Positions 15,261 to 40,696 of a DNA stretch of 64,000 nt are shown in pieces (the stretch's first letter is position 1; each line of letters begins with the position of its first letter). Origin of the DNA: Natronococcus amylolyticus DSM 10524 (GTDB lineage: Archaea > Halobacteriota > Halobacteria > Halobacteriales > Natrialbaceae); NCBI RefSeq assembly GCF_000337675.1, contig NZ_AOIB01000036.1, positions 1 through 64,000 on the forward strand, in the 5' to 3' direction. Both the position numbers and the translations under genes were made by a program. The notes below the pieces were generated by a model. It was not told where the DNA came from, did no database searches, and saw only the letters and a list, made by a program, of their open reading frames with translations.

Positions 15261-18230
15261 ATGTCACGATCGACGCTCGATCTCGATCGTCGGGGGTTCC
15301 TCAAGGCCGGTGCTGCCGGGACGCTCGCGACGGCGGTCGGGGGGCGAACGCTCCTCGAGCGGGGGGAGGCACAGGACGACGACACTGTCGATCCCGACGC
15401 GGCTGACGAGCTGGTCAAGACGGTCTGTACGCACTGCTCGGTCGGCTGCGGCGTACAGATGGCCGTCGAGGACGACGCGCTCGTCGGCCAGGAGACGTGG
15501 GACGACAACCCGATCAACCGGGGCGGGCTCTGCTCGAAGGGGGCGTCGCTCGCGCAGTCGGTCAACTCCGACAAACGGCTGAAGGAGCCGCTGAAACTCG
15601 AGGACGGCGAGTGGACCCAGATGGAGTGGGGCGCGATCCTCGAGGAGATCACCGGCCGACTGGACGACATCCGCGAGGAGACCGGCCCCCACGCCACGAT
15701 GTGGGTCGGGTCGGCCAAACACACGAACGAGTGTGCGTACCTGATCCGGAAGCTGGCCGCGTTCTACGGGACGAACAACATCGACCACCAGGCGCGGATC
15801 TGTCACTCGACGACGGTGACCGGGATCGCCAACACCTGGGGCGTCGGCGCGATGACCAACAACAACAACGACATGCGCAACGTCGACGTTAACCTCATCA
15901 TCGGGCACAACCCGCTCGAGAGCCACCCCGTCGCCTGGCAGCACTTCCAGGAGGCCCAGCGCCGAGGTGGCAGACACATCGTCGCCGAGCCGCGGTACAC
16001 GAAGACGGCCGCCGCCGCCGACGACTACTACCACTTCCGGTCGGGCACCGACGTCGCGTTCATCTACGGGCTGATCCACCACATCGTCGAGAACGATCTC
16101 CACGACGAGGCGTTCATCGAGAGCCGCGTGATGGTACCGACCTGGGAGGAGTTCCGCGACGATGTCCTTCCCGAGTACGACCTCGAGACGGTTTCGGATA
16201 TCACCGGGACGTCCGAGGACGACCTCGCCGAACTCGCCGAGACGCTCGCCGACGCCGACGTGAGCTGCGTCGAGTGGGCGATGGGTGGAACCCAGCACAA
16301 CAACGCGACGGGCAACGTTCGGGCCTACGCGATGCTGAACCTGACGCTCGGCCACGCCGCCCAGTCCGGCGGCGGCACGCCCATCTATCGGGGCCACGAC
16401 AACGTTCAGGGCGCGACCGACCTCGGCGTCGACTCCGGGAACACGCCGGGCTACTACGGGCTCGACGAGGGCGCCTGGGAGCACTGGACGAGCGTCTGGA
16501 CCGAAACCGAGAGCACCTCCGGCGAGATCAGCTACGACGAACTGGTCGATCGGTTCCACTCGACCGAGCTGATGGAAAAGAACGGCTTTACTGTCGCCCG
16601 CTGGTTCGAGGGCGTCCTCGACGACGAGTGGGAGATCTACCAGCCCGATCCGCTCCGGGCGGCGGTCTTCTGGGGGCACGGCCTCGGCTCGCTCAGCGAG
16701 TACAAGCGGGTTCGGGAGGCGGTCAACGAACTCGAGTTCATCGTCAACGTCGACGTCTACCCCAACCAGGTCGCCGAGCTCGCCGACAGCGACACCGACG
16801 TCTACATGCTGCCGGCGGCGACCAACATGGAGGAAGCCGGCAGCGCCACCAACACCGGCCGGCAGCTCCAGTGGCGAAACCAGGCGATTACCCCGCGGCA
16901 CAACTCCCGGACGGACTGGGAGCTGCTGTGTGACTTCGCCGAGCATCTCGGCTTCGGCGAGCACTTCGACTACGACGAGCCCGAGGAGATCCTGCGGGAG
17001 ATCAACCTGGGTACGCGCTCGATTGGCTACGTCGGCCAGACGCCCGAACGGCTCAAGCTCCACCAGGAGCACGCGGAGCTGTTCAGCGTCGAGGATCTCC
17101 GGGCCGACCTCGAGGAGGACCACGAGCTGTACGACGAACTCGACGGCGACTACTACGGCCTGCCGTGGCCGTCCTGGCACGAGGACCACCCCGGGACGCC
17201 GATCCTCTACGACGCGTCGCTCCACCCCGCGGAAGGCGGCATGGACTTCCGTGCGAACTGGTGGGACGCGGCGGTCGACGAGGACGATCCCGAGGTCGAG
17301 CCCGAGGACCAACTCCGGGAGCCGTTCGAGCCGGAGTGGTGGGACGGCGAACTCGAGGGGGTCCCGCAGTACCCGCTGTTCTCGACCGTGCTGCCCGACC
17401 CCGAGACCCCGGCCGCGGCGACGCTCCCGGTGGAGTACGCCGAGGACGAGTCCCAGTCGGTCGCCGACACCGCCGAGGCGCTTGCCGACGAGGGGTACGA
17501 CGTCGACCTCGAGCGGTACGCGGCGTTCGACAACCCACAGCCCGACGCCCCGTGGGGTCGCGGCCGAGCCCGGATGAAAGCCTGGAACCTCGAGGACCAG
17601 ATTCCGGTTCACCGCGAGCCCGCGGTCACGCCGCGCGCGGATCTCGTCGAGGACTACCCGTGTAACGAGCGCGTCGAGGACCACTGGCGCGTCGAGCTCG
17701 ACAACGAACGGGTCCAGCAGGACAACATCGACGCCCACGAGGAGTACGATCTGGTCCTCACGTCGGGCCGGCAGGTCGAACACCAGGGCGCCGCCGCACA
17801 GACCCGCAGCACGCTCGGCACGGCATCGCGGTCGCCGATGATGTACCTGGAGCTCCATCCCGACGTCGGCGGCGACCTCGGCGTCGACGACGGCGAGTGG
17901 ATCGTCGTCGAGACGCCCCACGCCGAGATGGTCGTTCAGGCCAACGTCACCGAGCGGGTCGCCCCTGATCACGCGTTCGCCCCCTACCACTGGAGCGGCA
18001 TCCTCGAGGGGGAGAGTATGCTGGAGACGGTCCCCGAGGGGCTGGGACCGCTGGTGATCGGCGAGTCGATCAACGCCGGGACGGCGCCGGCCTACGACCG
18101 CGAGACCCAGATGCAGGAGACGAAGGTGACGTTATGTCGCGTCCGGGTGGCTGACGACGGCGAGATCCCGGAGCTGTCGGATCGGCAGCTTCAGTGGCAA
18201 GAACAGCGCATGAGCCGCCACAAGCGATAG
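15261..18230 (+). CDS. Formate dehydrogenase catalytic subunit, molybdopterin (Tat-exported)
   Basis: The 989-aa protein starts with a twin-arginine signal (DRRGFLKAGAAG). Cys56, Cys59, Cys63 and Cys91 bind a [4Fe-4S] cluster. The active-site motif QARICHSTTVTGIANTWG places Cys181-His182 where FdnG-type enzymes have selenocysteine-histidine, so this is a cysteine variant. GAMTNNNNDMRNVD and the C-terminal molybdopterin dinucleotide-binding domain (QVEHQGAAAQTRS ... HWSGILEGE) complete the fold. It oxidises formate to CO2 on the outer face. The iron-sulfur and NrfD-type subunits follow directly. TATA-like CATATTTATTA lies about 30 bp upstream. Formate from PurU (39190-40167) is a plausible substrate source. 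Confidence 0.88.
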   Translation: MSRSTLDLDRRGFLKAGAAGTLATAVGGRTLLERGEAQDDDTVDPDAADELVKTVCTHCSVGCGVQMAVEDDALVGQETWDDNPINRGGLCSKGASLAQSVNSDKRLKEPLKLEDGEWTQMEWGAILEEITGRLDDIREETGPHATMWVGSAKHTNECAYLIRKLAAFYGTNNIDHQARICHSTTVTGIANTWGVGAMTNNNNDMRNVDVNLIIGHNPLESHPVAWQHFQEAQRRGGRHIVAEPRYTKTAAAADDYYHFRSGTDVAFIYGLIHHIVENDLHDEAFIESRVMVPTWEEFRDDVLPEYDLETVSDITGTSEDDLAELAETLADADVSCVEWAMGGTQHNNATGNVRAYAMLNLTLGHAAQSGGGTPIYRGHDNVQGATDLGVDSGNTPGYYGLDEGAWEHWTSVWTETESTSGEISYDELVDRFHSTELMEKNGFTVARWFEGVLDDEWEIYQPDPLRAAVFWGHGLGSLSEYKRVREAVNELEFIVNVDVYPNQVAELADSDTDVYMLPAATNMEEAGSATNTGRQLQWRNQAITPRHNSRTDWELLCDFAEHLGFGEHFDYDEPEEILREINLGTRSIGYVGQTPERLKLHQEHAELFSVEDLRADLEEDHELYDELDGDYYGLPWPSWHEDHPGTPILYDASLHPAEGGMDFRANWWDAAVDEDDPEVEPEDQLREPFEPEWWDGELEGVPQYPLFSTVLPDPETPAAATLPVEYAEDESQSVADTAEALADEGYDVDLERYAAFDNPQPDAPWGRGRARMKAWNLEDQIPVHREPAVTPRADLVEDYPCNERVEDHWRVELDNERVQQDNIDAHEEYDLVLTSGRQVEHQGAAAQTRSTLGTASRSPMMYLELHPDVGGDLGVDDGEWIVVETPHAEMVVQANVTERVAPDHAFAPYHWSGILEGESMLETVPEGLGPLVIGESINAGTAPAYDRETQMQETKVTLCRVRVADDGEIPELSDRQLQWQEQRMSRHKR

Positions 18231-18239
18231 GTGAAACCG

Positions 18240-18842
18240 ATGAGCACACACCAATCAGACGGAGGAACGGCCCGGGTAATCCCGAACTGGGAGTCCTGTA
18301 TCGACTGCGGCGCCTGCGAGGTCGCGTGTCAGCGAACGTGGGACCTGCCGCCCGAAAGCGACCGGATTCAGGTCGTCGCGCTCGCCCACGGCACGGAGGA
18401 CGAGACGAACAAGCCGATGCAGTGTTACAACTGCGCCGAAGCGCCCTGCGTCGAGGTCTGCCCGACCGACGCGCTTCGGTTTCGAGACAACGGCACCGTC
18501 CGGGTGGACGCGGGGATGTGCATCGGCTGTCACTACTGCGGCGTCGGCTGTCCGTTCGGCGCCCCCCAGTACCCCGACGCCGAGGTCCCCGAGGCCGAGG
18601 AAGCGTCGCCGCTGGGCGCCCGCGGGAACGGCCTGATGGACAAGTGCACGACCTGTGAGCCACGCCAGGAGCAGGGCCTCGAGCCAGCCTGCTCCTCGGA
18701 GTGTCCGACTGACGCGTTGCTGTTCGGCACGCCCGACGAACTCTCGGAAAAACTCGAGGAAGACCACGTCTCGACGCCGTTCTCCGACGAGGCTGCACGG
18801 ATCGTCTTCGGAGACGACGCGGACGAAATCATGGGGGAGTGA
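18240..18842 (+). CDS. Formate dehydrogenase iron-sulfur subunit (four [4Fe-4S])
   Basis: The 200-aa protein starts at ATG 18240, preceded by a GGTGA ribosome-binding site. An in-frame GTG at 18231 is less likely. Four cysteine groups match DmsB/FdnH-type electron-transfer subunits: CIDCGACEVAC, CYNCAEAPCVEVCP, CIGCHYCGVGCPFG, and CTTC with CSSECPTD. It should relay electrons from the molybdopterin subunit to the membrane subunit. No C-terminal membrane helix is present, unlike FdnH, so it is held by the NrfD-type partner. It follows the catalytic gene by 9 bp. Confidence 0.88.
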   Translation: MSTHQSDGGTARVIPNWESCIDCGACEVACQRTWDLPPESDRIQVVALAHGTEDETNKPMQCYNCAEAPCVEVCPTDALRFRDNGTVRVDAGMCIGCHYCGVGCPFGAPQYPDAEVPEAEEASPLGARGNGLMDKCTTCEPRQEQGLEPACSSECPTDALLFGTPDELSEKLEEDHVSTPFSDEAARIVFGDDADEIMGE

Positions 18843-18848
18843 TACACG

Positions 18849-19985
18849 ATGGCAACAGAAATCGCGTTCGAACTTCCGTACACGGAGTGGAACTGGCGAA
18901 TCGGCGTCTACATCGCCATGATCGGGATCGCCGGCGGGGCGTACCTGACCGGCTACGTCGCGGACCTCCTCTCGGCGAGGAGCAACGCGAGCGAGCACGG
19001 TCGGATCGCCAAGTACGGCTACCTCGTCGGACTGCTCGGACTAGCGATCGGCCCGCCGGTCCTGCTGTCGCACCTCGCGACGCCGTTCCGGGCGATGCTG
19101 ATCCCGCTGACGATGACGAACCTCGGCTCGTGGATGGCCATCGGGGCGTACATGCTGCTCGGGTTCGGCCTGGGCTCGTTCCTGATGTTCGTCTGGGTCG
19201 CGTTCGGGGCGAGCCGACCGCACTCACCGACCGTCGCCGAGGGGAGCGAGGGAACGCTCGCGGCCGACGGCGGACGGGACGTCGCCTCCGACGGCGGAGC
19301 CGAGGACGGACCCGCCAGGGCTGCAACGGGGGGGACGACCGGCGGGATCCGGGGCATCCTCGAGCGTCTCGGACTCGTAGACCGGCTCGACTCGCTCGCC
19401 GACTACACCCGCCCCTCGGAGCCGATCCGCCTCGCGCTCGGGGGCGTCTTTGCGATCTTCGCCGCCGGCGTCCTCGTCTACTCGGCGATGGCGTACGGCT
19501 CCGGGGCGACCGAACGGGTCGCGCTGTGGGACAAGACGTTCCTGGTTCCGGTCCAGATTTTCGGCGGGCTCGGCGCGGGGCTGGCCGTCTCCGTCGGGCT
19601 GACGGCGGTCGCCGACCGGTCCGTCAGCCCGACGATCCAGAACTACGCGCTCGGCGCCGCCGGACTGCTGGCGGCGACGCTGGCGGCGGTGCTCGCGACC
19701 GTCTTCCTGCTACCGGAGCAGGTTCCCGCGGCCGAGCCGGCGGTACAGAACCTGCTGACCACTCACGCGACGCTGTTCGTCGGCGTCGTCGTGATCGCCG
19801 GGCTGATCGTGCCGATCCTGCTGTCGGTCGGAACGGTCGTCGGCCAGCGTCGCGACGCGGTCTCGGCGACCGCTGCGGCGACGTCCTACGCCATCGCCGG
19901 GCTGCTGGTGATCGCCGGTAAGGTCGCCCTCGCGCTGGCGTACCTGCTCGCAGCCGAGTTCACGCCGATTCCGCTCCCGGTCTGA
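18849..19985 (+). CDS. NrfD/PsrC-type membrane subunit of formate dehydrogenase
   Basis: The 378-aa protein has eight to nine predicted membrane helices and begins with the NrfD-like TEWNWRIGVYIAMIGIAGGAYLTGY. A hydrophilic loop around residues 125-175 is glycine/aspartate-rich. NrfD-family proteins lack haem and pass electrons to quinone, so electrons from formate would enter the menaquinone pool here. Classical formate dehydrogenase N uses a cytochrome b instead. The gene begins 6 bp after the iron-sulfur gene and closes the operon. Confidence 0.85.
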   Translation: MATEIAFELPYTEWNWRIGVYIAMIGIAGGAYLTGYVADLLSARSNASEHGRIAKYGYLVGLLGLAIGPPVLLSHLATPFRAMLIPLTMTNLGSWMAIGAYMLLGFGLGSFLMFVWVAFGASRPHSPTVAEGSEGTLAADGGRDVASDGGAEDGPARAATGGTTGGIRGILERLGLVDRLDSLADYTRPSEPIRLALGGVFAIFAAGVLVYSAMAYGSGATERVALWDKTFLVPVQIFGGLGAGLAVSVGLTAVADRSVSPTIQNYALGAAGLLAATLAAVLATVFLLPEQVPAAEPAVQNLLTTHATLFVGVVVIAGLIVPILLSVGTVVGQRRDAVSATAAATSYAIAGLLVIAGKVALALAYLLAAEFTPIPLPV

Positions 19986-23977: not shown

Positions 23978-24988
23978 TCAGGCGTCGTACGCTTCCTGAG
24001 CGAGTCGATGGAGCTTGTGAACGGTGTGTTCGTTCGGTCCGAGCTGGGCCTGCGCGAGCGCGCCGGTCCGCAGCCCTGCCCACTGGCGTTCGACGAGTTC
24101 GAAGTCCTCTTCCTGGAGCTGACGGCTCGTGCGGACGAACTCTCGTTCCTCCTCCGAGATGTCGCCGTCACGGAAGTAGTAGTCCGCAATGAGCCGGAAG
24201 CGGCCGGTGTCGATCGGATCGATGATGTAGGTGCCGTAGCCGTCGGCGGTGCCGTACATGTTGACCGTGAAGTTCGGCCAGAAGTAGTGGAACTGGGCCT
24301 CGCGCTCGTCGTGAATGCGGAGTTCGTCCTCGATGTCCTCGTCGTGGGTGTAGTGGAGCACCCAGTGGTAGTCGTTGACCTCGAGTTCGGAGTCGGTGAG
24401 CTCGATCCCCTTGATCCAGTCCTGGTGGTTGGCCTGGCAGTGGTCGCACTCGGAGTAGTTACCCGCGAACACCTTCCAGTTGCACTCGACCTCCGAGACG
24501 ACCCGGCAGCCGTGCTCGTACTCCTCGAGGGGCAGCGACTCGAGTCGCTCCTTCAGCACACCGGCCTGTTCGGAGAGCGACATCGGCTCGTCGCTCAGGT
24601 TGACGAAGTAAAGCGGTCCGATGCTGTCGACGCGGACCGACTCGGCGTGCTCGAAGTCGGCGAGGTCGACGCGGCCGGGATCGGTCATCGACGTCTCGTC
24701 GACCACCGGCGAGCCGGTTCGCGCCGAGAAGTTCTCGAAGACCTCGACGTCGCCGTCCGTTCCGCGGACGACGACGAGGTCGCGACCGCCGACGTTCCGG
24801 GTGAAGAACTGTCCCGGCTCGGCGATGCAGCTGGCGTGGCCGGCGTACACCCAGTACCGCCCGAAGACCTTGTCCTTCTCCATCTCGAAGGTCTCGGGCT
24901 CGGTGAAGTACTTCGCCGGCAGCGCGTTCGACTTCTCCGTGATATCCGGGCTGACTGGCTTTGTCCGAGCGTGCTCCCACTGTGTCAT
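23978..24988 (-). CDS. Rieske-oxygenase alpha-subunit homologue A: iron site intact, Rieske site lost
   Basis: From ATG 24986-24988 the protein has 336 residues. The C-terminal domain keeps the mononuclear-iron site: NYSECDHCQANH gives Glu180 (bridging acid), His183 and His188, and Asp295 lies in LQEEDFELVE. The N-terminal Rieske fold remains (GQFFTRNVGGRDLVVVRG), but the first cluster motif reads SAR (Ser88, Arg90) instead of CxH. About 41 residues holding the second motif (CxxH) are missing relative to homologue B. The framework is closest to betaine/carnitine-type monooxygenases such as GbcA. It probably demethylates a betaine using electrons from a partner's cluster. The frame is intact, with no sign of pseudogene decay. 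Confidence 0.82.
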   Translation of the reverse strand: MTQWEHARTKPVSPDITEKSNALPAKYFTEPETFEMEKDKVFGRYWVYAGHASCIAEPGQFFTRNVGGRDLVVVRGTDGDVEVFENFSARTGSPVVDETSMTDPGRVDLADFEHAESVRVDSIGPLYFVNLSDEPMSLSEQAGVLKERLESLPLEEYEHGCRVVSEVECNWKVFAGNYSECDHCQANHQDWIKGIELTDSELEVNDYHWVLHYTHDEDIEDELRIHDEREAQFHYFWPNFTVNMYGTADGYGTYIIDPIDTGRFRLIADYYFRDGDISEEEREFVRTSRQLQEEDFELVERQWAGLRTGALAQAQLGPNEHTVHKLHRLAQEAYDA

Positions 24989-25322
24989 ATACTCACTATG
25001 ATGATAGAGTTCATGAAAGAAGTTAACTAGGTATATTGCGCCCATTTATATGACGGGTGGTTCTCGACAGCGCTGGTCGCGTTCCCGCTTGGCCTGGAGT
25101 CGCCCGGCGTCGCCTTCGTCCGTCGAGCGAGCATTGCCGACGGTGTCGTGACTCAGGTTCGAAATCCACCGACTGACCGCCGTTCCCGGCGGTACTGGGA
25201 GCCAGTCGTGGCCGCGTCAAGAAGAGGTCGTTCGGGCGGTCGTCTTCGCAGTGTAGGACGGTCGTTCGTCGACAGTAGGAGGGGCCGGAAGCCGATACAC
25301 CGCCGACCGGGGGTTTCCTCGA
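24989..25322. other. Promoter region of Rieske homologue A
   Basis: No gene is seen in these 334 bp. On the minus strand, TATA-like words occur at 25031-25037 (AATATAC) and 25045-25051 (ATATAAA), 43-63 bp before the start codon of homologue A. The rest is GC-rich with no clear structure. Confidence 0.45.
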
Positions 25323-25706
25323 TCAGAACGCACGTAGGTGGTCGTCTTGTGGTTCGTACAGTCCGCCGCCCATTCGGATCTCGTGGATCTTTTCGAGCGT
25401 CTCGCCGATCGACAGTCCCTGCTCGCTCATCGCCGCTGCGACGGCGCCGATCGGAACCCCGTTCTCGTACTCCGCCTCGAGCTGGGTCACGACGTCTTTG
25501 AGCGTGTAGACCTCCTTGAGGTCGTCCTCTGTCACCGCGTCCACGAGGTCGGGTCCGATTCGGGTGAACTCCACGTCGTGGCCCGTGACACTCGAGTGGC
25601 GGCGGTAGAACTCGACGATCTCGTTCGGGTCCTCGCTGTGCAGATCGACGTCGCAGTCGGGACAGCTCGCGGCATACGTTGAGTGTTGTTGTTGTTGTGT
25701 GCTCAT
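25323..25706 (-). CDS. Zinc-binding plus winged-helix small protein in the Rieske B operon
   Basis: From ATG 25704-25706 the protein has 127 residues. CPDCDVDLHSEDPNEIVEFYRRH supplies CxxC and two histidines, a zinc-finger-like start. Residues 75-127 (GVPIGAVAAAMSEQGLSIGETLEKIHEIRMGGGLYEPQDDHLRAF) resemble the C-terminal winged helix of archaeal MCM and related haloarchaeal HTH proteins. It starts 7 bp after the stop of Rieske homologue B, so the two are cotranscribed. It may act as a small regulator or assembly factor for that pair. Its exact role is not known. Confidence 0.6.
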   Translation of the reverse strand: MSTQQQQHSTYAASCPDCDVDLHSEDPNEIVEFYRRHSSVTGHDVEFTRIGPDLVDAVTEDDLKEVYTLKDVVTQLEAEYENGVPIGAVAAAMSEQGLSIGETLEKIHEIRMGGGLYEPQDDHLRAF

Positions 25707-25713
25707 GGATCGA

Positions 25714-26793
25714 TCACGAGTTGGACTCCTGTGCGAGCCCGTGGAGGTCGTGGACGGTGTGTTCGTTCGGTCCGAGCGTCCGCTCGAGGGTGCTGGCTCC
25801 GTCCGCGTCGCGGCGGCGTTCGGCCAGTTCGATCGCTTCGGCCCGACGCTGGCGGCTCGTGCGGACGAACTCTCGTTCCGCTTCGGTGCCATCGCCGTCC
25901 CGAGCGTAGTAGTCTACGATCAGCTGACAGCGGCCGGCGTCGACCGGGTCGATAATACACGTCGCGTACCCGTCGTCGCCGTCCACCTCGATCGTGACGT
26001 TCGGCCAGCAGTAGTGAATCTGCGCTCTCCCATCGTCGTCGGTCGAACTGAGCGACCAGCAGTGGTCGTCGGTCTCGAGGTCGGTCTCCGCGGACTCGAC
26101 GCCCGGAAGCCGATCCTGACGGTCGACCGCGTCCAGGAGGCTGCCGGCGACCGTCTTCCAGTTGCACTCGACCTCCTCGACGACCCGACGCTCGTGGTCG
26201 GCCGCCTCGAGGGACAGCGACTCGAGCCGATCCGCCATCGGACCGACCTGCTCGGACAGCGCCGGCGGGTCGTCGCTCAGGTTCACGAACAGCAGCGGGC
26301 CGACGCTGTCAATGTGAACGTCGTTCAGGCCGTTGGTCTCGCAGTCGAACTCCTGGACGTCCTCGTTCTCGAGGTCGGGGTTCAGGCTCGCGTCCTCGAA
26401 GCTCTTCGGTGTGCTCCGGAGCTCGCCGTCGAGGTCGTACGTCCAGAGATGGTACGGACACTGGATCCGGTTCCCACCGCCGGGATCGGTCATCGGCGTA
26501 TCCTCGACCATCTTGGAGCCGCGATGGGCACAGACGTTGTCGAACGCCTTGCTCTCGCCGTCGTGACCGCGGACGACGATCAGCTGCCGGTCGCCGACGG
26601 TTCGGGTGAAGAACTGTCCCGGTTCGGCGATGCTGTTGGCGTGGCCGGCGTAGATCCAGTCTCTGCCGAAGACCGTCTCCTTCTCCGTCTCGAAGGGATC
26701 GGGGTCGGCGAGCTGATTGGCCGACGAGGTGCTCGACTCGTCCGTAACGTTCTCACTCACCGCGGCGGCTTGTGAGTCGTCCCACTGTGTCAT
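25714..26793 (-). CDS. Rieske-oxygenase alpha-subunit homologue B: Rieske site intact, iron site lost
   Basis: From ATG 26791-26793 the protein has 359 residues. Cys88-His90 (CAH) and Cys112-His115 (CPYH) give a complete Rieske [2Fe-2S] site. In the catalytic domain the region matching NYSECDHCQANH of homologue A reads SLLDAVDRQDRL, so both histidines are gone. The aspartate position reads RRAEAIELAE, Ala for Asp, and about 18 residues are missing overall. Outside these sites A and B align closely, both beginning MTQW and sharing GQFFTR, FVNLSD, VECNWK, FVRTSRQ and LGPNEHTVH. It is thus an electron-carrying partner rather than an oxygenase alone. TATA-like GTATATC lies 19-25 bp upstream. Confidence 0.82.
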   Translation of the reverse strand: MTQWDDSQAAAVSENVTDESSTSSANQLADPDPFETEKETVFGRDWIYAGHANSIAEPGQFFTRTVGDRQLIVVRGHDGESKAFDNVCAHRGSKMVEDTPMTDPGGGNRIQCPYHLWTYDLDGELRSTPKSFEDASLNPDLENEDVQEFDCETNGLNDVHIDSVGPLLFVNLSDDPPALSEQVGPMADRLESLSLEAADHERRVVEEVECNWKTVAGSLLDAVDRQDRLPGVESAETDLETDDHCWSLSSTDDDGRAQIHYCWPNVTIEVDGDDGYATCIIDPVDAGRCQLIVDYYARDGDGTEAEREFVRTSRQRRAEAIELAERRRDADGASTLERTLGPNEHTVHDLHGLAQESNS

Positions 26794-28536: not shown

Positions 28537-31104
28537 ATGAATACACACGACAGTCTGCCGGCCGAGGCCGACACCGTCGTCGTCGGGGCCGGAATCGTCG
28601 GCTGCAGCACGGCCTACCACCTGACCGAGTTCGGGCGTGAGGACGTCGTCGTCGTCGACCAGGGGCCACTCCCGACCACGGGCGGCTCCTCGAGCCACGC
28701 GCCGGGGATCATGTTCCAGACCGCCGAGGACAAGGTGTTGACCAAGTTCGCGAACTACAGCCGCAAGCTCTACTCGCAACTCGAGGACGAGGACGGGAAC
28801 CAGCTCTACAGCGAGACGGGCGGGATCGAAGTCGCCCGGAGCGACGAGCGGATGGACTTCCTCCAGCGCCGGGTCGAGTACGGCACCGCGTGGGGCGTTC
28901 CGGACCCCCAGCTCCTCTCGCCCGAGGAGGTCGAGGAGAAGCTGCCGCTGGTCGACAGCGACGTCATCCAGGGCGGCTACTACTCGCCGACCGACGGCCA
29001 GGTGTCGGGTGTCAAGGCCTGCGCCGCGCTGGCGAGGGCGTCGATGGATCGGGGCGCGAGGTTCGTCCCCCACACCCGGACCGAGGACGTCGCGGTCGAG
29101 GACGGCGAGGTGCAGGCCGTCGTCACCGAACACGGCGAGATCGAGTGTAACGAGGTCGTGATCGCGACGAACATCTGGGCGCGCCAGCTTGGCGAACAGC
29201 TCGGAGTCCACCTGCCCGTGACGCCGGTCGAACACCAGTACACGATCACCGAGTCCCTCGAGGAGCTGTCGGACGACCAGGACGTCACCCAGGACCCGGT
29301 CTACGAGAACTACCGCGAAGTCTCCGGCGAGAAGGCAGACCGCCTGCTCGCGAACCCCGACCGACCGATCCTCCGGGACCAGGACAACGCCCTGTACTTC
29401 CGGACCCACGGCGACGCCTACGGGATCGGCTCGTACAACCACGAACCGCTCGTCCCCGACCCACAGGAGCTCGGCGGTAACGAGGAGGGCGGCGAGCAGG
29501 GCTCGATCCACGAGTTCTCCGACTACCACCTGAACAACGCGACCCACCCCGATCGGCCGGACAAGGCACCCCGCCAGGCCAGCGACGAGCTGTTGCCCGC
29601 GACCGCGGGGAAAGAACTCGAGCACAAGTACAACGGGATGTTCGCGGAGTCGCCCAACGGCCTCCCCGTGATGGGGCCCGTCCAGGAGTACGACGGGCTC
29701 TGGACCGCCGCGGCTATCTGGGTCACCCACGCCGGCGGCGCGGGGCGAGCGCTGGCCGAGTGGATGGAGACCGGCGCGCCGAAGCTCTCCGACGGACGGA
29801 TCGACCTCTCGCACTGTAACGTCAACCGGTTCCAGCCCCACGAGGGCAGCTGGGACTTCGCCCGCGACATCGGCGGCGAGGAGTACCGGATCGTCTACAA
29901 CATCGTCCACCCCAAGTGGACCTGGACGGACTACCAGCGCGACATCCGCCGCAGCTCGGTCTACCACAAACTGCAGGAGCTCGACGCCGAGCTGTGGGCC
30001 GAGGCCGGCTGGGAGGAGGCCCAGTGGTTCGATTCGAACGCCGACTTGCTTGCACGCTACGGCGAGGACGTTCCCGAGCGGGACGGCTGGGAGGCGAAGT
30101 ACTGGTCGCCGATCGAGGGCGCCGAGTCCCTGCACGTCCGCAACGAGGTCGGCATCCACGATATGACCTCGTTCAACAAGATGGAGGTCAGCGGGCAGGG
30201 CGCCGGCGAGTTCGTCCAGTACCTCTGTACCAACGACATGGACATCGACGTCGGGCAGGTGCGCTACACCCTCATGTGCAACGAGGAGGGTGGCGTGCGG
30301 GCCGACATCACCGTCACCCGGACCGACGACGATCGCTACCTCGTGCTCACCACGGGCCGGGAGGTCGGGCAGAACCACGTCGCCTGGGTCAAGAAACACG
30401 CCCCCGAGGACGTCACGGTCCGGGAGGTCACCTCCGAACTCACCTCGTTCGTCCTCACGGGGCCGAACGCCCGCGACGTGCTGAGCGAGGTAACCCGAGC
30501 CGATCTCTCGGACGACGCCTTCCCGTACTTCACCTCCCAGGAGATGTTCGTCAAGAACGTCCCGGTGCGGGCGCTGCGAGTCTCCTACGCCGGGGAACTC
30601 GGCTGGGAGCTGTACACGCCAAGCGAGTACGGCGGACGGCTCTGGGAGCACCTCTGGGAGGCCGGCCAGGACCACGACCTCCGGCCGTACGGCAACGGCG
30701 CGCTCGACTCCCTGCGCATCGAGAAGGGGTTCCGGCTGTGGGGGGAGGACCTCCACACCGAGCACAACCCCTACGAGGCGGGGCTCAGCTTCGCCGTCGA
30801 CCTCGAGACGGAGTTCATCGGGAAGGAGGCCGTCGTCGAGGCCGCCGAGGGCGAGCGGATCGATCACAAGGTAGCCTGTCTGACCCTCGATGACGAGGAC
30901 GCGGTCGTCTTCAAGAACCGGCCCGTCCTCGACGGCGACGAATCGTTGGGGTACGTTCACAGCGCCGAGTACGGCTACACGGTCGGCGCCTGCGTCGCCT
31001 ACGCCTACCTCCCGCCGGAGTACGCCGAGCCCGGCACTGAAGTCGAGATTCTCCACGAGGGCGAACGCTACGCGGCGACGGTTCAGGACGGACCGCTGCT
31101 GTAG
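28537..31104 (+). CDS. Dimethylglycine/sarcosine dehydrogenase-type flavoprotein, paralogue 1
   Basis: The 855-aa protein has the four-part DMGDH/SARDH layout. An FAD-binding DAO domain occupies residues 1-370 (VVVGAGIVGCSTAYHL). A linker follows (about 375-430), then GcvT-like folate domains (about 430-760 and 765-850; MEVSGQGAGEFVQYL, YAGELGWELYTPSEY). His54 in SSSHAPG matches the histidine that carries covalent FAD. Such enzymes oxidise an N-methyl group and pass it to tetrahydrofolate as methylene-THF. Haloarchaea use folate C1 carriers, so this fits. Whether it prefers dimethylglycine or sarcosine cannot be told. The ribosome-binding site is strong and the TATA box clear. Confidence 0.85.
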   Translation: MNTHDSLPAEADTVVVGAGIVGCSTAYHLTEFGREDVVVVDQGPLPTTGGSSSHAPGIMFQTAEDKVLTKFANYSRKLYSQLEDEDGNQLYSETGGIEVARSDERMDFLQRRVEYGTAWGVPDPQLLSPEEVEEKLPLVDSDVIQGGYYSPTDGQVSGVKACAALARASMDRGARFVPHTRTEDVAVEDGEVQAVVTEHGEIECNEVVIATNIWARQLGEQLGVHLPVTPVEHQYTITESLEELSDDQDVTQDPVYENYREVSGEKADRLLANPDRPILRDQDNALYFRTHGDAYGIGSYNHEPLVPDPQELGGNEEGGEQGSIHEFSDYHLNNATHPDRPDKAPRQASDELLPATAGKELEHKYNGMFAESPNGLPVMGPVQEYDGLWTAAAIWVTHAGGAGRALAEWMETGAPKLSDGRIDLSHCNVNRFQPHEGSWDFARDIGGEEYRIVYNIVHPKWTWTDYQRDIRRSSVYHKLQELDAELWAEAGWEEAQWFDSNADLLARYGEDVPERDGWEAKYWSPIEGAESLHVRNEVGIHDMTSFNKMEVSGQGAGEFVQYLCTNDMDIDVGQVRYTLMCNEEGGVRADITVTRTDDDRYLVLTTGREVGQNHVAWVKKHAPEDVTVREVTSELTSFVLTGPNARDVLSEVTRADLSDDAFPYFTSQEMFVKNVPVRALRVSYAGELGWELYTPSEYGGRLWEHLWEAGQDHDLRPYGNGALDSLRIEKGFRLWGEDLHTEHNPYEAGLSFAVDLETEFIGKEAVVEAAEGERIDHKVACLTLDDEDAVVFKNRPVLDGDESLGYVHSAEYGYTVGACVAYAYLPPEYAEPGTEVEILHEGERYAATVQDGPLL

Positions 31105-31677: not shown

Positions 31678-31896
31678 ATGGACGTTCCGGTTTCGCTGCC
31701 GTAGTCACGGTCGTCGAACGGCGTCCTCGAGCGACTAACCTTGGGACGCAATACGTGTCTGGATGATGACTGTTTGTGGACTGTCGATCAACACTGTCCC
31801 TTCGTCGCCGGAGTGGGCCCGCAGTACCCGGATTGAAGACCGCGTCCGCCCTCTCACCGATGCACTTATGATACCCACTGTACCACGGTGTGGTAT

Positions 31897-34446
31897 ATGA
31901 GCACAGACAGCCCGCCCTCGAGTGCCGGGACGGTGATCATCGGTGCCGGGGCGGTCGGGTGCAGCGTGGCTTATCACCTGACCGAACTCGGTGCCGACGA
32001 CGTCGTCGTCCTCGACAAGGGACCGCTGCCGGTGACCGGCGGCTCCTCGACCCACGCGCCGGGGATCATGTTCCAGACCTCGCCGTCGAAGCTCCAGACG
32101 AAGACGGCCCACTACACGACTCGACTGCTGAAGGAAGCCGGCGTCTACAACGAGACCGGCGGAATCGAGCTCGCTCGCTCGGAGGAACGGATGGATTTCC
32201 TCCAGCGCCGGGTCGAGTGGGCGAAATCGTACGGGCTCCCCGAGCCGGAGCTGCTCGAGCCCGCGGAAGTCACCGACTACCTGCCGCTGGTCGACGAGGA
32301 GGAGATCCTCGGCGGCTACTACTCGCCGACCGACGGCCAGGTCGCCGGCACCGACGCGCTCCAGTGGTACCTCGAGACGACGCCGGCGTCGTTCCACGGC
32401 CACACCGAGGTGACCGATATCGAGGTCGACGGCGGGGAGGTGCAGGCGGTCGTCACCGACCGCGGGCGCATCGAGTGTGACCGCTGCGTGCTGGCAACGA
32501 ACAACTGGGCCTACCAGACCGGACAGCTCGCTGGCGTCGACCTGCCGATCGCCCCGGTCGAACACCAGTACGTCGTCACCGAACCGCTCGAGGAGCTGCG
32601 AGGCAACGAACGGGCCGACGACGCCGTCACCGGGCTCGAGATCCCGGGCGATCGAAAGATCACCGAGTCGATGGCCCAGCCGCCGGACCGCCCGGTCGGC
32701 CGGGATCAAGACAACTCGTTATACTTCCGAACCCACGGCGAGGGGTACGGGCTCGGCTCGTACAACCACGAGCAGCTCGTGGTCGACCCCGACGAGATGG
32801 GGTCGAACTCCGAGGAGAGCCAGGCCTCCGTCCACAGCTTCACGGAGAAACACTGGAGGAAGGCGACTCACCCGGATCGGGAGAAGTCGCCGAAGCAGGC
32901 GTTCGACGAGCTGCTTCCTGCGACCGAAGGCAGAGAGTTCGACGCTACCGAGAACGGAATCTTCGTCTACACGCCGGACGGGATGCCCGTACTGGGCGAG
33001 ACCGCGGCGGTCGACGGGCTCTGGACCGGGCTCGCGATCTGGTGGACCCACTCGGGCGGCTACGGCAAGATCCTCGCGGAGTGGATGGAAACGGGCGTCC
33101 CCCGACTCCCCTCCGGCCCCGTCGACACGAGCGGAATCCACGTCGAGCGGTTCGAGCCTCACGCAGGAAACAAGCAGTACTTCATGGACCGTGGCGGGAT
33201 GCGCTACCAGCAGGTCTACAGCATCGTCGAGCCCCGCTGGCAGCCCGCCGACCGCCGCGGGCTCCGGACGAGTCCGTTCTACCACCGTCAGCAGGAACTG
33301 GGTGCGGAGTTCTACCAGAGCGGCGGCTGGGAGACCCCGCAGTGGTACGAATCCAACGCCGACCTCCTCTCGACGTACGAGGACCGCATCCCCGACCAGG
33401 ACGGCTGGCAGGGGGTCAACCGCTCCCCGATCGAGGGCGCCGAACATCTCCACACCCGCGAGAAGGTGTCGATGTTCGATATGACGACGTTCAGTTCGAT
33501 CGTGGTCGAGGGCAGCGACGCCGGCGCGTTCCTCCAGCGGGTCTGTAGCAACGATATGGACCTCTCGATCGGCCAGGTTCGCTACACCACGATGTTGAAC
33601 GAAGGCGGGACCGTCCTCGCGGACCTCACCGTCGCTCGCCTCGACGACGAGGAGTACGTGGTGACCACCGGTGGGGGGAACTCGCCGGGGATCCACGGCT
33701 CCTGGCTCGAGCGCCACGCCCCCGAGTCGGTGTCGGTCACGGTCGAGGAGTCCGCGAGGAGTACGATCGGCCTCTGGGGGCCGAACGCGCGACTGCTCCT
33801 CCAGCGGGCGACCGACGCGGATCTCTCGAACGACGAGTTCTCCTACTTCAGCGGAAAGCGGATCTACGTCGGCGACGTCCCCGTCATCGCCCTGCGGCTC
33901 TCCTACGTCGGCGAACTCGGCTGGGAGCTGTGGGCGCCGACGGAGTACGCGGGGAAGCTGTGGGACACCCTCTGGGAAGCCGGCCAGGATCTGGGCGTCC
34001 GACCGATGGGCGCCGGGGCCGTCGAGTCGATGCGCCTCGAGAAGGGGTTCCGGCTGTGGGGGACGGACGTCGATACCGACGTCAACCCCTACGAGGCCGG
34101 GCTCCCGTTCGCGGTCGATCTCGACACCGACTTCATCGGGAAGGAGGCGCTCGTCGAGGCCAAAGACGAGGGGATCGACAACCGGGTCGCCTGCCTCACC
34201 CTCGACGACTCGAGCGACGTGATGCTGAGCGGCCGTCCGGTCTCGAAAGACGGCGCCACTCTCGGGTACGTCCAGGCCGGCGACTACGGCTACAGCATCG
34301 GCGAGTCGATCGCGTACACCTACCTGCCGAGCGAGTACGCCGAGACGGGCACGTCGGTCCGAATCGAGTGCGAGGGGCAGAGCTACGACGCGACGGTTCG
34401 GGACGAGCCGCTGTTCGACCCCGGCCGCGATAAAATAATCCGATAG
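31897..34446 (+). CDS. Dimethylglycine/sarcosine dehydrogenase-type flavoprotein, paralogue 2
   Basis: From ATG 31897 the protein has 849 residues and the same domain order as paralogue 1: FAD/DAO domain (VIIGAGAVGCSVAYHL), linker, and two GcvT-like folate domains. His53 in SSTHAPG is the covalent-flavin position. The two are clearly homologous throughout but divergent enough to have separate substrates. One plausible split is dimethylglycine for one and sarcosine for the other. ATG 31897 is favoured over GTG 31888. TATA-like ACTTATGA lies about 25-33 bp upstream, so the mRNA may be nearly leaderless. The dehydratase gene follows by 17 bp. Confidence 0.85.
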   Translation: MSTDSPPSSAGTVIIGAGAVGCSVAYHLTELGADDVVVLDKGPLPVTGGSSTHAPGIMFQTSPSKLQTKTAHYTTRLLKEAGVYNETGGIELARSEERMDFLQRRVEWAKSYGLPEPELLEPAEVTDYLPLVDEEEILGGYYSPTDGQVAGTDALQWYLETTPASFHGHTEVTDIEVDGGEVQAVVTDRGRIECDRCVLATNNWAYQTGQLAGVDLPIAPVEHQYVVTEPLEELRGNERADDAVTGLEIPGDRKITESMAQPPDRPVGRDQDNSLYFRTHGEGYGLGSYNHEQLVVDPDEMGSNSEESQASVHSFTEKHWRKATHPDREKSPKQAFDELLPATEGREFDATENGIFVYTPDGMPVLGETAAVDGLWTGLAIWWTHSGGYGKILAEWMETGVPRLPSGPVDTSGIHVERFEPHAGNKQYFMDRGGMRYQQVYSIVEPRWQPADRRGLRTSPFYHRQQELGAEFYQSGGWETPQWYESNADLLSTYEDRIPDQDGWQGVNRSPIEGAEHLHTREKVSMFDMTTFSSIVVEGSDAGAFLQRVCSNDMDLSIGQVRYTTMLNEGGTVLADLTVARLDDEEYVVTTGGGNSPGIHGSWLERHAPESVSVTVEESARSTIGLWGPNARLLLQRATDADLSNDEFSYFSGKRIYVGDVPVIALRLSYVGELGWELWAPTEYAGKLWDTLWEAGQDLGVRPMGAGAVESMRLEKGFRLWGTDVDTDVNPYEAGLPFAVDLDTDFIGKEALVEAKDEGIDNRVACLTLDDSSDVMLSGRPVSKDGATLGYVQAGDYGYSIGESIAYTYLPSEYAETGTSVRIECEGQSYDATVRDEPLFDPGRDKIIR

Positions 34447-34463: not shown

Positions 34464-35711
34464 ATGAACGAATCACGAAAACGCGAACCCGAAATCCAGT
34501 ACGAGGACATCGAGCGAGCACGCGAGCGACTGACCGACGAGACGGTCGTCAAGCGCACGCCGATCGAGCGCTCCACGTCCCTCGAGGAGCTGGTCGACGC
34601 GGAGGTCTACCTGAAGATGGAACACCTCCAGTGGACCGGCTCGTTCAAGACCCGCGGGGCGTACAACCGGATCAGCCAGGCCGTCGCCGACGGCGCCGAC
34701 GAGTTCGTCGCCGCAAGCGCCGGCAACCACGCCCAGGGCGTCGCGCTGGCTGCGACCAGGTGTGGCGCCGACTCGACGATCGTTATGCCGAGACATGCCC
34801 CCCAGGCGAAGATCGACGCCACCCGGAGCTACGGCGCGACGGTCGAACTCGTCGGCCAGGACTTCCAGGAGGCGATGGCCCACGCGAAGGAGTACGCCAG
34901 CGAGGACGACGAGGTCGAGTTCGTCCACGCCTACGACGATCCCGCGATCGTCGCGGGACAGGGAACTCTGGGAATCGAGATGTACGAGGACCTCCCCGAG
35001 GTCGACACCGTCGTCGTCCCGATCGGCGGCGGCGGGTTGATAAGCGGGATCTCCACGGCGCTCGACCACCTCTCACCCGAGACGCGAGTCGTCGGCGTCC
35101 AGGCGACAGGCGCCGAGACCGTCCACGAGAGCCTCGACAAGGGCGTCCCGGTGACGCTCGACGACGTCGATACGATCGCCGACGGGATCGCCACCGGTGG
35201 GATCTCCGAACTGACGCTGGGGCTCATCGAGGAACACGTCGACGAGGTCGTCACCGTCACCGACTCCCAGATCGCCCGCGCGATCTTGCTGTTGCTCGAG
35301 CGAGCGAAGCAGGTCGTCGAGGGCGCGGCCGCGGCGTCGGTCGCGGCGCTGCTGAGCGACGATCTGGATGTCACGGGCGAGACCGTCATGCCGCTGCTGT
35401 GTGGCGGCAATCTCGACATGACGATGCTGCAGACGGTGTTGATCCACGCGCTCACCGGCCGAGGCCAGATCCTGCGCCTGCGCGTGAAGATCGACGACAT
35501 GCCGGGGAAGATGAACGAGCTCTCGGGGATCATCGCCCACCACGGAGCGAACATTCAGACCGTCCGCCACGACCGCGCGGTCGAATCGCTGAACGTCGGC
35601 GAGGCCTACCTCGTCTTCCAGATCGAGACGAGCGGGATCGAACACGCCGCCGCGATCATCGACAGCATCGAAGCGGAGGGGTACGACGTCGAAGACGTCA
35701 ACCGCGAATAA
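34464..35711 (+). CDS. Threonine/serine ammonia-lyase with C-terminal ACT domain
   Basis: The 415-aa PLP enzyme has Lys62 in GSFKTRGAYN as the Schiff-base lysine. SAGNHAQGVAL is the serine/threonine dehydratase substrate loop, and PIGGGGLISGIS binds PLP phosphate. Residues 335-412 form one ACT domain (LRLRVKIDDMPGKMNELSGII). It converts threonine to 2-oxobutyrate or serine to pyruvate, both with ammonia release. Here it is 17 bp behind a sarcosine/dimethylglycine dehydrogenase and near glyA. Serine-to-pyruvate is therefore the likely in-pathway reaction. Biosynthetic IlvA activity remains possible. Confidence 0.87.
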   Translation: MNESRKREPEIQYEDIERARERLTDETVVKRTPIERSTSLEELVDAEVYLKMEHLQWTGSFKTRGAYNRISQAVADGADEFVAASAGNHAQGVALAATRCGADSTIVMPRHAPQAKIDATRSYGATVELVGQDFQEAMAHAKEYASEDDEVEFVHAYDDPAIVAGQGTLGIEMYEDLPEVDTVVVPIGGGGLISGISTALDHLSPETRVVGVQATGAETVHESLDKGVPVTLDDVDTIADGIATGGISELTLGLIEEHVDEVVTVTDSQIARAILLLLERAKQVVEGAAAASVAALLSDDLDVTGETVMPLLCGGNLDMTMLQTVLIHALTGRGQILRLRVKIDDMPGKMNELSGIIAHHGANIQTVRHDRAVESLNVGEAYLVFQIETSGIEHAAAIIDSIEAEGYDVEDVNRE

Positions 35712-35910: not shown

Positions 35911-37551
35911 GTGGCCGGCTCTGAGTCGACCGGGCCGCTGGCGCGATTCGCCGAGGAACTCGACGTCGCCGTCTTCACCGTCGGCTTCGTCATCGCGGCC
36001 GTGTCGGTACTGGCGTTCGTGATTCGGCCCGAGGCCGCGTCGAGCCTGATGGCCGACGCGAACGACGTTCTGTGGACCGCCGCCGGCTGGTGGTACCTGG
36101 TCGCGATGTTTATCCTCGTCGCGTTCGTCGGCTTCCTCATCTTCGGGCCGTGGGGAAACATCAAACTCGGCGACGACGACGAACGGCCGGAGTTTGCCTT
36201 CCCGGCGTACTTCGCGATGCTGTACTCCGCCGGAATCGCTGCCGGAATCGTATTCTGGGGGCCCGCCGAGGCCATTTTCCACTACGACGCGGTATCGCCG
36301 TTCGTCGACGCCGAGTCCCAGTCCTCCGGCGCCGCGGTCAGCGCGATCCAGTACACCTTCTTCCACTGGGGCGTCTCCGCGTGGACCGCCTACGTCGTCA
36401 TGGCGCTGCCGATCGCGTACTTCGCGTATCGGTACGACGCGCCGCTTCGGATCTCGACGGTGATCGCACCGTGGGTCGGCCTCGAGAATCTCGACAGCCC
36501 GCTCGCGAAGTCGATCGACATCCTCGCGGTGTTCGCCACGATCGGCGGCGTCGCGACGACGCTCGGGCTGGTCGGAAGCCAGTTCCTCGTCGGCATCGAG
36601 TGGACCACCGGTGCCAGCGTCGGCGACGCGGGTACCGTGGTGGTGATAACCGGCCTCACGGTCGCGTTCACGATCTCCGTCGCGCTCGGGGTTCGAAAGG
36701 GGATCCGACGGCTCTCCTACTTCAATATGGGGCTGTTCGCGCTCGTGACCGTCGCGACGTTCCTGCTCGGACCCACGACCCAGATCATGTCGATGGGGAC
36801 CCAGGCGCTCGGCGCCTACATCAACCAGTTCATCACGATGAGCTTCTACACTGGATCCGGCGCCACGGGAGGTGCGGGCGTCGCGGAGTGGGTCGGCGAC
36901 TGGACGATCTTCTACTGGGCCTGGTGGTTCTCCTGGACGCCGTTCGTCGGCCTCTTCATCGCGCGGATCTCACGGGGCCGAACGGTCCGGCAGGTCGCCG
37001 TTACGGGCGTGATCGCCTCGACCGGAATCACGGTTCCCTGGTTCGCAACGATGGGCGGAACGGCGATCTTCCTCCAGGGAAACGATCGGGCCGACATCCT
37101 CGCTGTCGTCAGTGAACTCGGCGAGGCGGGGTCGGGCTACCCGCTGTTCGAGGCGCTCCCGCTGGGCGGCGTGTTGACCGTCCTCTTTCTGGTGCTCGTG
37201 ACGACGTTCCTGATCACGTCGGCCGACTCCTCGACGCTCGCACTCGGCATGCTGACCACCGGCGGCGTCGAGGAGCCCTCGACGATCAACCGCGTCATCT
37301 GGGGCTTTCTCATCGGGGCGCTGGCCTCCCTGCTGATGGTTACCGGTGGCGTCGACGCGCTTCAGCAGGCCGCGATCATCACCGGCGGCCCGTTCTCGAT
37401 CATCGCTCTGCTCGCCGTGATCTCGATGATGTCCGCGTTCGGAGCTCGCAGACCGCTGTTCCTCCGCGAGGAGGACGACGTCTCGCTCGGCTCGACCGAC
37501 CTCGAGGGAACCCGCACGGAACCCGAGACCGCGGATCCGTCCGACGACTGA
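35911..37551 (+). CDS. BCCT-family (betaine/carnitine/choline) transporter
   Basis: The 546-aa protein has 12 membrane helices and the BCCT signature YWAWWFSWTPFVGLFIARISRGRTVR. The WWxSW aromatic box binds the quaternary ammonium in this family. GIVFWGPAEAI and FFHWGVSAWTAY are further family motifs. It imports glycine betaine or a related trimethylammonium compound by ion symport. The C-terminal tail (about 40 residues) is acidic and short. Translation probably begins at GTG 35911, since the next ATG lies inside the first helix region. Its position between catabolic genes argues for uptake of a nutrient as well as an osmolyte. Confidence 0.9.
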   Translation: MAGSESTGPLARFAEELDVAVFTVGFVIAAVSVLAFVIRPEAASSLMADANDVLWTAAGWWYLVAMFILVAFVGFLIFGPWGNIKLGDDDERPEFAFPAYFAMLYSAGIAAGIVFWGPAEAIFHYDAVSPFVDAESQSSGAAVSAIQYTFFHWGVSAWTAYVVMALPIAYFAYRYDAPLRISTVIAPWVGLENLDSPLAKSIDILAVFATIGGVATTLGLVGSQFLVGIEWTTGASVGDAGTVVVITGLTVAFTISVALGVRKGIRRLSYFNMGLFALVTVATFLLGPTTQIMSMGTQALGAYINQFITMSFYTGSGATGGAGVAEWVGDWTIFYWAWWFSWTPFVGLFIARISRGRTVRQVAVTGVIASTGITVPWFATMGGTAIFLQGNDRADILAVVSELGEAGSGYPLFEALPLGGVLTVLFLVLVTTFLITSADSSTLALGMLTTGGVEEPSTINRVIWGFLIGALASLLMVTGGVDALQQAAIITGGPFSIIALLAVISMMSAFGARRPLFLREEDDVSLGSTDLEGTRTEPETADPSDD

Positions 37552-37775: not shown

Positions 37776-39026
37776 CTACTCGTAGATCGGGTATGCCGTA
37801 CAGAGTTCGTCGACCTGTGAGGCCACACGATCGGTGACACCCTCGTCGTCAGGCGCGTCGAGTACGTCGACGATACAGTCGGCGACGGTCTCCATCTCCG
37901 CCTCCTCGAGCCCGCGCGTGGTGAGCGCCGGCGTGCCGACGCGGATCCCGCTCGTGACCATCGGCGATCGGGTCTCGCCGGGAACGGTGTTCTTGTTGAC
38001 GATGATGCCGGCGTCGCTCAGCAGCGACTCGGCTTGCTTGCCCGTGAGGTCGGGATGGGAGTCCCGGAGGTCGACCAGCAGGAGGTGTTTGTCGGTGCCG
38101 TCGCTGACCAGCGAGAGTCCTCGCTCGACGAAGACATCGGCGAGTCGCTTCGCGTTCGCGACGACCTGTTCGGCGTACTCGTCGAACGCGTCGGTTCGAG
38201 CTTCCGCGAAGCCGACGGCCTTGCCGGCGACGTTGTGCATCAGCGGGCCGCCCTGCGCGCCGGGGAACACCGCCGAGTCGATGTCGTCGGCGAACTCCTC
38301 GTCGCACATGACGATCCCGCCCCGCCCCGCGCGGATCGTCTTGTGCGTGCTCCCGGTGACGAATTCGGCGTGTTCGACGGGCGAGGCGTGGACGCCGGCC
38401 GCGACGAGCCCGGTTACGTGAGCGATGTCCGCCAGGTGGAGCGCGTCGACGGCGTCGGCGATCTCCGCGATTCGCTCGTACTCGAACTCGCGGGGGTACG
38501 CCGAAGAACCGCTGACGATCAGCTCCGGATCGGTCTCGCGAGCCTGCCGCTCGAGGTCGTCGTAGTCGATGTAGCCGGTGTCGGGATCGACCTCGTACTG
38601 GTCGACGTCGTAGAGCTGTCCGGAGAAGTTGACGCTGTGGCCGTGGCTCAGATGGCCGCCGTGAGACAGCGACAGCGAGAGGATGCTGTCGGCGGGCTCG
38701 AGGACGGCAAAGTAGACGCTCATGTTCGCCTGGGTCCCGCTGTGGGGCTGGACGTTGACGTGGTCCGCGCCGAAGAGCGCTTTCGCCGACTCGATCGCGT
38801 CCTCCTCGACCGTGTCGACGTGCTGGCAGCCGCCGTAGTACCGGCCGCCGGGGTAGCCCTCGGCGTACTTGTTCGTCAGCGCGCTGCCCTGGGCCTCGAG
38901 GACGGCCTCCGAGACGTGGTTTTCCGAGGCGATCATGCCGAGCGTCGACTCCTGTCGATCGCGTTCGCGGTCGATGGCCGTCGCTACGCTCGGTGAGATG
39001 CTGTCGAGTGGCTGGTCGAACGCCAT
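37776..39026 (-). CDS. glyA: Serine hydroxymethyltransferase
   Basis: The 416-aa protein has the SHMT motifs NKYAEGYPGGRYYGG, NVQPHSGTQAN and HLADIAHVTGLVAAG. TGSTHKTIRAGRGG carries PLP-lysine Lys229. It interconverts glycine plus methylene-THF with serine plus THF. Beside dimethylglycine/sarcosine dehydrogenases it can combine their two products, glycine and methylene-THF, into serine. The gene is convergent with the BCCT gene. It starts at ATG 39024-39026. Confidence 0.95.
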   Translation of the reverse strand: MAFDQPLDSISPSVATAIDRERDRQESTLGMIASENHVSEAVLEAQGSALTNKYAEGYPGGRYYGGCQHVDTVEEDAIESAKALFGADHVNVQPHSGTQANMSVYFAVLEPADSILSLSLSHGGHLSHGHSVNFSGQLYDVDQYEVDPDTGYIDYDDLERQARETDPELIVSGSSAYPREFEYERIAEIADAVDALHLADIAHVTGLVAAGVHASPVEHAEFVTGSTHKTIRAGRGGIVMCDEEFADDIDSAVFPGAQGGPLMHNVAGKAVGFAEARTDAFDEYAEQVVANAKRLADVFVERGLSLVSDGTDKHLLLVDLRDSHPDLTGKQAESLLSDAGIIVNKNTVPGETRSPMVTSGIRVGTPALTTRGLEEAEMETVADCIVDVLDAPDDEGVTDRVASQVDELCTAYPIYE

Positions 39027-40167: not shown

Positions 40168-40696
40168 CGCTGCCGATTCCCTCCGTCGTCGGCGTTTACT
40201 CGCTGCTGGCGCTGCTGGCGCTGCAGTCGCTCCTCGCCTCGAGGGGCCTGCCTGTAGTGTGACATCTACTGACGTAGTTCCGGTTCGCCGATAATGAACG
40301 TTGGCTCTCCTGAAATCACCGAGAGAGGATGTGCTTCGGAACGCTCGTCGTTTTCGGTATCTGATAGCTTGTGAACCGACGGAGGTCACCGAACAGGACC
40401 GACACGGGTTTGGTATCGACCGCAGTCGCCTCCTTCACTCTCGAGAACAGTACTGAACCCGACGCTAAACTTCTGGATGTTTATTAAACTGGATAGAGCC
40501 AGGAGGCCAAGTGACCTATTCTGCAGGGAAGATACCACAATAGTAGTTAAGTTTTACAACACCTGAGGTCGGCCACGAGGAACGATCGGCTCCGAGCCAA
40601 CCGCGTTCGCACACCGAACGCTGTGGATCCGCCAGCGGGCTCGAGGCGGACCCAGCCACCCAGTACGCATATAGTCGCCGTCGTCGAACGCTGTCC
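40168..40696. other. Gene-free stretch after purU
   Basis: Nothing convincing is coded in these 529 bp. An AT-rich core at 40470-40560 (ATGTTTATTAAAC, ATAGTAGTTAAG) could hold promoters. No hairpin chain was found. Confidence 0.35.

Follow-up and report, generated by a model that had tools for sequence, protein, structure and literature searches.

Complementary loss of Rieske and iron centres in two sister oxygenase proteins of Natronococcus

In the chlorophyllide a oxygenase of Micromonas pusilla (MpCAO), the Rieske motif reportedly sits in one chain and the motif for the mononuclear iron in the other, and both chains are needed. MpCAO (Kunugi 2013, cited in PMC9615114) consists of two polypeptide chains and is active in vitro; a heterodimer had previously been suggested and a trimer of dimers was proposed (PMC9615114). 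A different arrangement is found in NdmCDE, the 7-methylxanthine N7-demethylase of Pseudomonas putida CBB5, in which the catalytic subunit NdmC has no Rieske cluster (PMC4408171); the missing cluster comes from the reductase NdmD, to which a Rieske domain is fused, and the GST-like NdmE is required. The enzyme with the closest solved fold to the proteins described here, the carnitine monooxygenase CntA, is a head-to-tail trimer in which cluster and iron lie 44 Å apart within a subunit and 12.2 Å apart across subunits; its bridging E205 is essential and its Y203 binds the quaternary ammonium group (PMC7948474). A cysteine pair occurs in some group V enzymes (PMC10952381).

We found the two centres of such an enzyme distributed over sister proteins in a 64,000-nucleotide stretch of Natronococcus amylolyticus DSM 10524 (the window). 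Protein A (336 aa; 23978..24988, minus strand), a predicted Rieske-less catalytic subunit, retains the iron site N177/E180/H183/H188/D295; it has S88-A89-R90 where C-x-H is expected, and the CxxH half has gone with a 41-residue deletion. Protein B (359 aa; 25714..26793, minus strand), a predicted iron-less Rieske subunit, retains the ligands C88/H90/C112/H115; a 4-residue deletion and substitutions disrupt its ExxHxxxxH motif, with both iron histidines lost, and the iron-site aspartate is replaced by alanine in the window protein. Both reading frames are uninterrupted at these coordinates, as the original prediction had stated, and every residue that it named is correct. In Pfam searches, A matched only the catalytic family PF00848, and B matched the Rieske family PF00355 while falling below the PF00848 cut-off. 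Neither chain combines CxH...CxxH with the His/His/Asp site, as a one-chain Rieske oxygenase does; between them, the two chains hold both centres and a conserved bridging Glu.

Judged by sequence, A and B correspond to MpCAO in forming a Rieske-only chain and an iron-only chain that are sister proteins, although MpCAO is a eukaryotic plastid enzyme that acts on chlorophyll and belongs to an independent lineage. The resemblance to NdmCDE is that a catalytic subunit would receive its missing cluster from another protein. By contrast with NdmD, the proposed donor B is a sister subunit of the oxygenase whose iron site is dead; it has no flavin or NAD domain. These precedents correct the remark, made when the pair was first noticed, that no described oxygenase with such a division was known. 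CntA chains (PDB 6Y8J, 6Y9D and 6ZGP) were the top match for structure models of both A (pLDDT 81) and B (pLDDT 70, confidence in its Rieske region being no better than moderate). Like CntA, A keeps the bridging Glu, the quaternary-ammonium Tyr (Y178, which aligns with CntA Y203) and a Cys-x-x-Cys pair (C181/C184). This pair and the Tyr, taken as marks of group V quaternary-ammonium enzymes, are present in 21 of 21 A sequences and absent from B. CntA differs from A and B in being a homotrimer whose subunits each contain both centres. We consider it highly probable that A and B together make up one quaternary-ammonium-class Rieske oxygenase, as two of its subunits, related to CntA, GbcA and stachydrine demethylase, in which the cluster of B would reduce the iron of A.

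We searched for relatives in the genus, the family, about 390 genomes of the class, one named genome collection and a set of genomes selected from its loci, covering about 430 distinct haloarchaeal genomes. Close relatives that bear a name (Natronococcus sp. A-GB1, sp. A-GB7 and N. jeotgali) place the window in Natronococcus or very near it. The genes are of three kinds: two are full-length, F1 and F2, and the third comprises the half proteins A and B. F1 is present in many haloarchaea, usually without A. At least 22 genomes carry an A-type gene; they represent three or more families and also include Halegenticoccus, Halogranum and Haladaptatus, and the 41-residue loss is identical in all. In the 21 A sequences compared, the first Rieske Cys is invariably Ser, CPYH is deleted and the N/E/H/H/D iron site is intact (21/21 each). 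Their length is 336 aa in 20 cases, exactly 41 below the usual 377 of F2, the single exception coming from a genome whose assembly contains Ns and is locally duplicated. B-type proteins have all four Rieske ligands and have lost both iron histidines in 6/6 cases, with Asp still present at the third iron-ligand position in two of the six. Independent assemblies share the losses in A and B, and chance, sequencing error and frameshifts were therefore rejected as their cause.

Individual assemblies showed irregularities at these genes. In Natrinema versiforme, A (L096 3455-4576) and F2 (L097 4659-5903) have a common 30-residue C-terminal tandem duplication; the A copy of it contains Ns and the paralogues are near-identical, and it is probably an assembly artefact. 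Haloterrigena salina has a frameshifted A-type gene, a second frameshifted relative and a disturbed F2 gene (L100 3390-4500 and 14279-15406, L101 6812-8218), all through either sequencing error or true decay; this A-bearing genome, an old draft with frameshifts, was excluded from the trees. In genome G077, F2 genes (L093, L094, L104 and L105) are truncated at the ends of two contigs whose starts are near-identical; the assembly broke at repeated copies.

The companion of A is always a Rieske-bearing paralogue, which is an intact F2 in 16 of the 22 genomes and B in the remaining six, all of them Natronococcus. Across the roughly 430 haloarchaeal genomes there was no A without a companion and no B without A, in agreement with the expectation that neither would be found alone; the single F2 that lacked an accompanying A was that of Haloarcula amylovorans. 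None of the six B-bearing genomes encodes a full-length relative (0/6). In the window genome (99.8% complete), A is the only PF00848 protein above the cut-off, and no intact homologue is present to do the job of the pair; in the other five B genomes the only matches apart from A were B, with marginal scores, and a distant protein of 577 aa (G006). The tie between A and B was only partly as first proposed: B always occurs with A, but A has an intact F2 as its partner in 16 genomes, and because A persists there, a strict partnership with B is not required of it. One possible explanation for A beside F2 is a contribution to site number, reductase docking or regulation.

This coexistence also bears on whether A or B is a non-catalytic regulatory or structural subunit, with no passage of electrons from B to A. 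Pseudo-enzyme subunits are common once homo-oligomers duplicate, and in the 16 genomes with intact F2, A is not needed for a complete enzyme. In Natronococcus, however, the two centres never share a subunit and a complete paralogue is lacking, and selection preserves the metal sites beyond the fold alone, making this explanation very unlikely.

We estimated omega under a codon model fitted by hand-written maximum-likelihood code; topologies were fixed, each partition was given its own branch lengths, and the same six genomes served for A and B. Omega was 0.031 (95% 0.021-0.044) in the catalytic part of A and 0.076 in its Rieske remnant, and 0.023 (0.012-0.042) in the Rieske part of B and 0.197 (0.151-0.251) in its catalytic part. 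The control values for the Rieske and catalytic parts were 0.050 and 0.020 for F2 and 0.047 and 0.041 for F1, although gene conversion may blur the F2 and A estimates outside Natronococcus. Equal omega was rejected between the two parts of B (likelihood-ratio test, 2dl 45.8) and between the catalytic parts of A and B (2dl 64.3), but not between the catalytic parts of A and F2 (2dl 2.5). Selection thus mirrors the split, with low omega in the catalytic part of A and the Rieske part of B and high omega in the catalytic part of B. The expectation that both genes would be under constraint was borne out for the catalytic part of A and the Rieske part of B; relaxation in the catalytic domain of B exceeds that of its relatives about six- to tenfold, yet this domain remains far from neutral (2dl about 160 against omega 1).

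The relaxation in B also fits a protein that is losing its function, and B, perhaps together with A, could be a pseudogene decaying after duplication while the pathway is being lost in Natronococcus. The catalytic domain of B evolves fast and varies in length, and the whole family is missing from G001, a member of the same genus. However, the frames are open in six of six genomes, the Rieske ligands of B are kept in all six, and decay would not be expected to spare exactly the complementary half. The omega values of the preserved halves, together with a catalytic domain in B that evolves far below omega 1, led us to reject pseudogenes, and we regard decay as highly improbable. Complementary subunits find support in conservation, co-occurrence, the lack of another full oxygenase and reciprocal purifying selection, although B is not the only partner of A.

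The history of the two halves differs. In a tree of N-terminal residues 1-103, the A sequences cluster beside F2 as a single clade (100/96), and the B sequences, also a single clade (99/94), group with F2. In a DNA tree of the catalytic half, each A instead pairs with the F2 of its own genome, so that the A label has to change at least 13 times, and B falls with the A of Natronococcus. Third-position identity over residues 206-290 is mostly 0.85-0.95 between A and F2 of one genome, compared with about 0.6-0.8 between orthologues, and the identity of same-genome A and F2 falls at the Rieske part. The conflict between the trees and the third-position identities indicate that, within each genome, A and F2 stay alike in their catalytic halves through gene conversion. 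It also explains why the whole-length tree gives weak support (76/79) for a single origin of A, which the N-terminal tree restores: the truncated Rieske part of A is separately inherited and has one origin. B has escaped this homogenisation, and its catalytic half is just ~43% alike to that of A. A and F2 are a clean case of domain-limited concerted evolution. The A and F2 genes at L091-L100, L122-L124, L146, L148 and L153 have homogenised catalytic halves and distinct Rieske parts.

A arose first, and B later in Natronococcus. We propose that a full-length ancestor, F2, would have been duplicated and that one copy, A, would have lost 41 residues of its Rieske domain; many haloarchaea would then have retained A alongside F2, with gene conversion homogenising its catalytic half to that of F2. 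B would have originated subsequently, when the F2 copy of Natronococcus lost its iron site, and the pair would thereby have become mutually dependent. We think it likely that the outcome is an obligate archaeal betaine demethylase heteromer, derived from a homotrimer by a two-step ratchet, with F alone, F with A, and B with A all alive today.

The surrounding genes point to the substrate. On the plus strand lie two fusions of an FAD oxidoreductase with GcvT, resembling dimethylglycine/sarcosine dehydrogenase (28537..31104 and 31888..34446), a threonine/serine ammonia-lyase (34464..35711; TIGR01127 above cut-off) and a BCCT-family transporter (35911..37551), for which the best match is a glycine betaine uptake model. 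They are followed on the minus strand by a serine hydroxymethyltransferase (37776..39026; above cut-off) and a PurU-like formyltetrahydrofolate deformylase (39190..40389). A formate dehydrogenase-like operon with molybdopterin, Fe-S and membrane subunits (15261..19985, plus strand) fits a role as C1 sink. The locus thus encodes a route from betaine to pyruvate and formate that is complete except for the first demethylation. Alternative enzymes for this step were rejected, as searches of the window genome for MttB-type and betaine/homocysteine S-methyltransferase-type families found neither. The best NCBIfam match of A, B and their full-length relatives is the GbcA model NF058607, and GbcA has the same kind of pathway neighbours. 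Unlike GbcA, these proteins score 75-145 bits against a cut-off of 670 bits (A 75.5, B 110.9, F2 144.7), too low for an equivalog assignment, and no adjacent GbcB-type reductase gene was seen. Because these scores fall far under the cut-off, betaine as the substrate rests on the context and three residues of A. The context, the CntA-like folds and these residues suggest that betaine or a close quaternary amine would be demethylated at the iron of A, and A and B are probably a glycine betaine demethylase.

Other genes accompany the pair. Between B and A, a gene of 126 aa with HVO_B0008 N- and C-terminal domains (25323..25703, minus strand) has counterparts downstream of almost all F or B genes found in haloarchaea; the C-terminal part of its product weakly resembles a winged helix, and the protein is possibly a regulator or assembly factor of the oxygenase. 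In most genomes with an A gene, a homologue (40-88% identity) of the long acidic ORF at 27008-28414 (minus strand; no Pfam match) lies upstream of B or F2. An MFS transporter gene (22655-23956, plus strand) is convergent with A and kept there in most Natronococcus genomes with A and B; none was seen near A in F2 genomes.

The further Rieske matches of the window genome comprise an FAD oxidoreductase that ends in a Rieske domain at its C terminus, a pair of small Rieske proteins and one match inside a long frame; a single BenC-like flavoprotein lies away from the locus. A could be a working oxygenase that draws electrons directly from another Rieske or ferredoxin protein, B being a separate carrier or relic; NdmC, which relies on an additional cluster in its reductase (PMC4408171), offers a precedent, and a free Rieske ferredoxin-like protein (L003) a candidate donor. 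However, relatives of L003 are absent from four other A-bearing genomes (G003, G007, G161 and G402), by which an independent Rieske ferredoxin was rejected as the general donor of A, whereas F2 or B is always present. B has also retained the fold of an oxygenase and is most constrained in its Rieske domain, which argues against a mere carrier. We therefore regard direct donation to A by such another protein as unlikely.

Residue losses, conservation, co-occurrence, the pattern of selection, gene conversion and the pathway context were all observed; in the preferred reading, in which A and B are subunits of one enzyme, co-assembly, electron path, substrate and obligate dependence are inferred. 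An external reductase or ferredoxin would reduce the [2Fe-2S] cluster of B; A and B would assemble head to tail in the usual ring; the electron would cross the B-to-A interface, past the bridging Glu180 of A, to its mononuclear iron, where O2 and the substrate would react. Such complementation is possible because, in the geometry of CntA, the cluster is nearer to the iron of the neighbouring subunit than to its own. The original prediction of a ring with alternating A and B cannot hold for a trimer: since the closest solved relative is a head-to-tail trimer, strict alternation, which would need an even-numbered ring, is impossible. By analogy with CntA, a mixed trimer (AB2 or A2B) would contain exactly one B-to-A interface, and thus a single working one. 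A trimer of dimers, as suggested for the two-chain MpCAO, may apply to A and B too.

The division itself was already known; A and B are new in the domain of life, the enzyme group, the type of donor and the survival of intermediates. Unlike MpCAO, they are archaeal and of the quaternary-ammonium class, with living intermediates (A with F2) and ongoing gene conversion. Searches of the openly licensed PMC literature returned nothing relevant on haloarchaeal betaine Rieske enzymes, and within it this would be the first archaeal Rieske oxygenase with its redox centres parted between sister subunits. The split provides a direct test of inter-subunit electron transfer in Rieske oxygenases, and the persistence of a Rieske-less A beside an intact F2 in several families is a question in its own right. 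Because intermediates survive, the origin of an obligate heteromer can be traced step by step, and, if our reading is true, the evolution of mutual subunit dependence would be replayable in one culturable clade.
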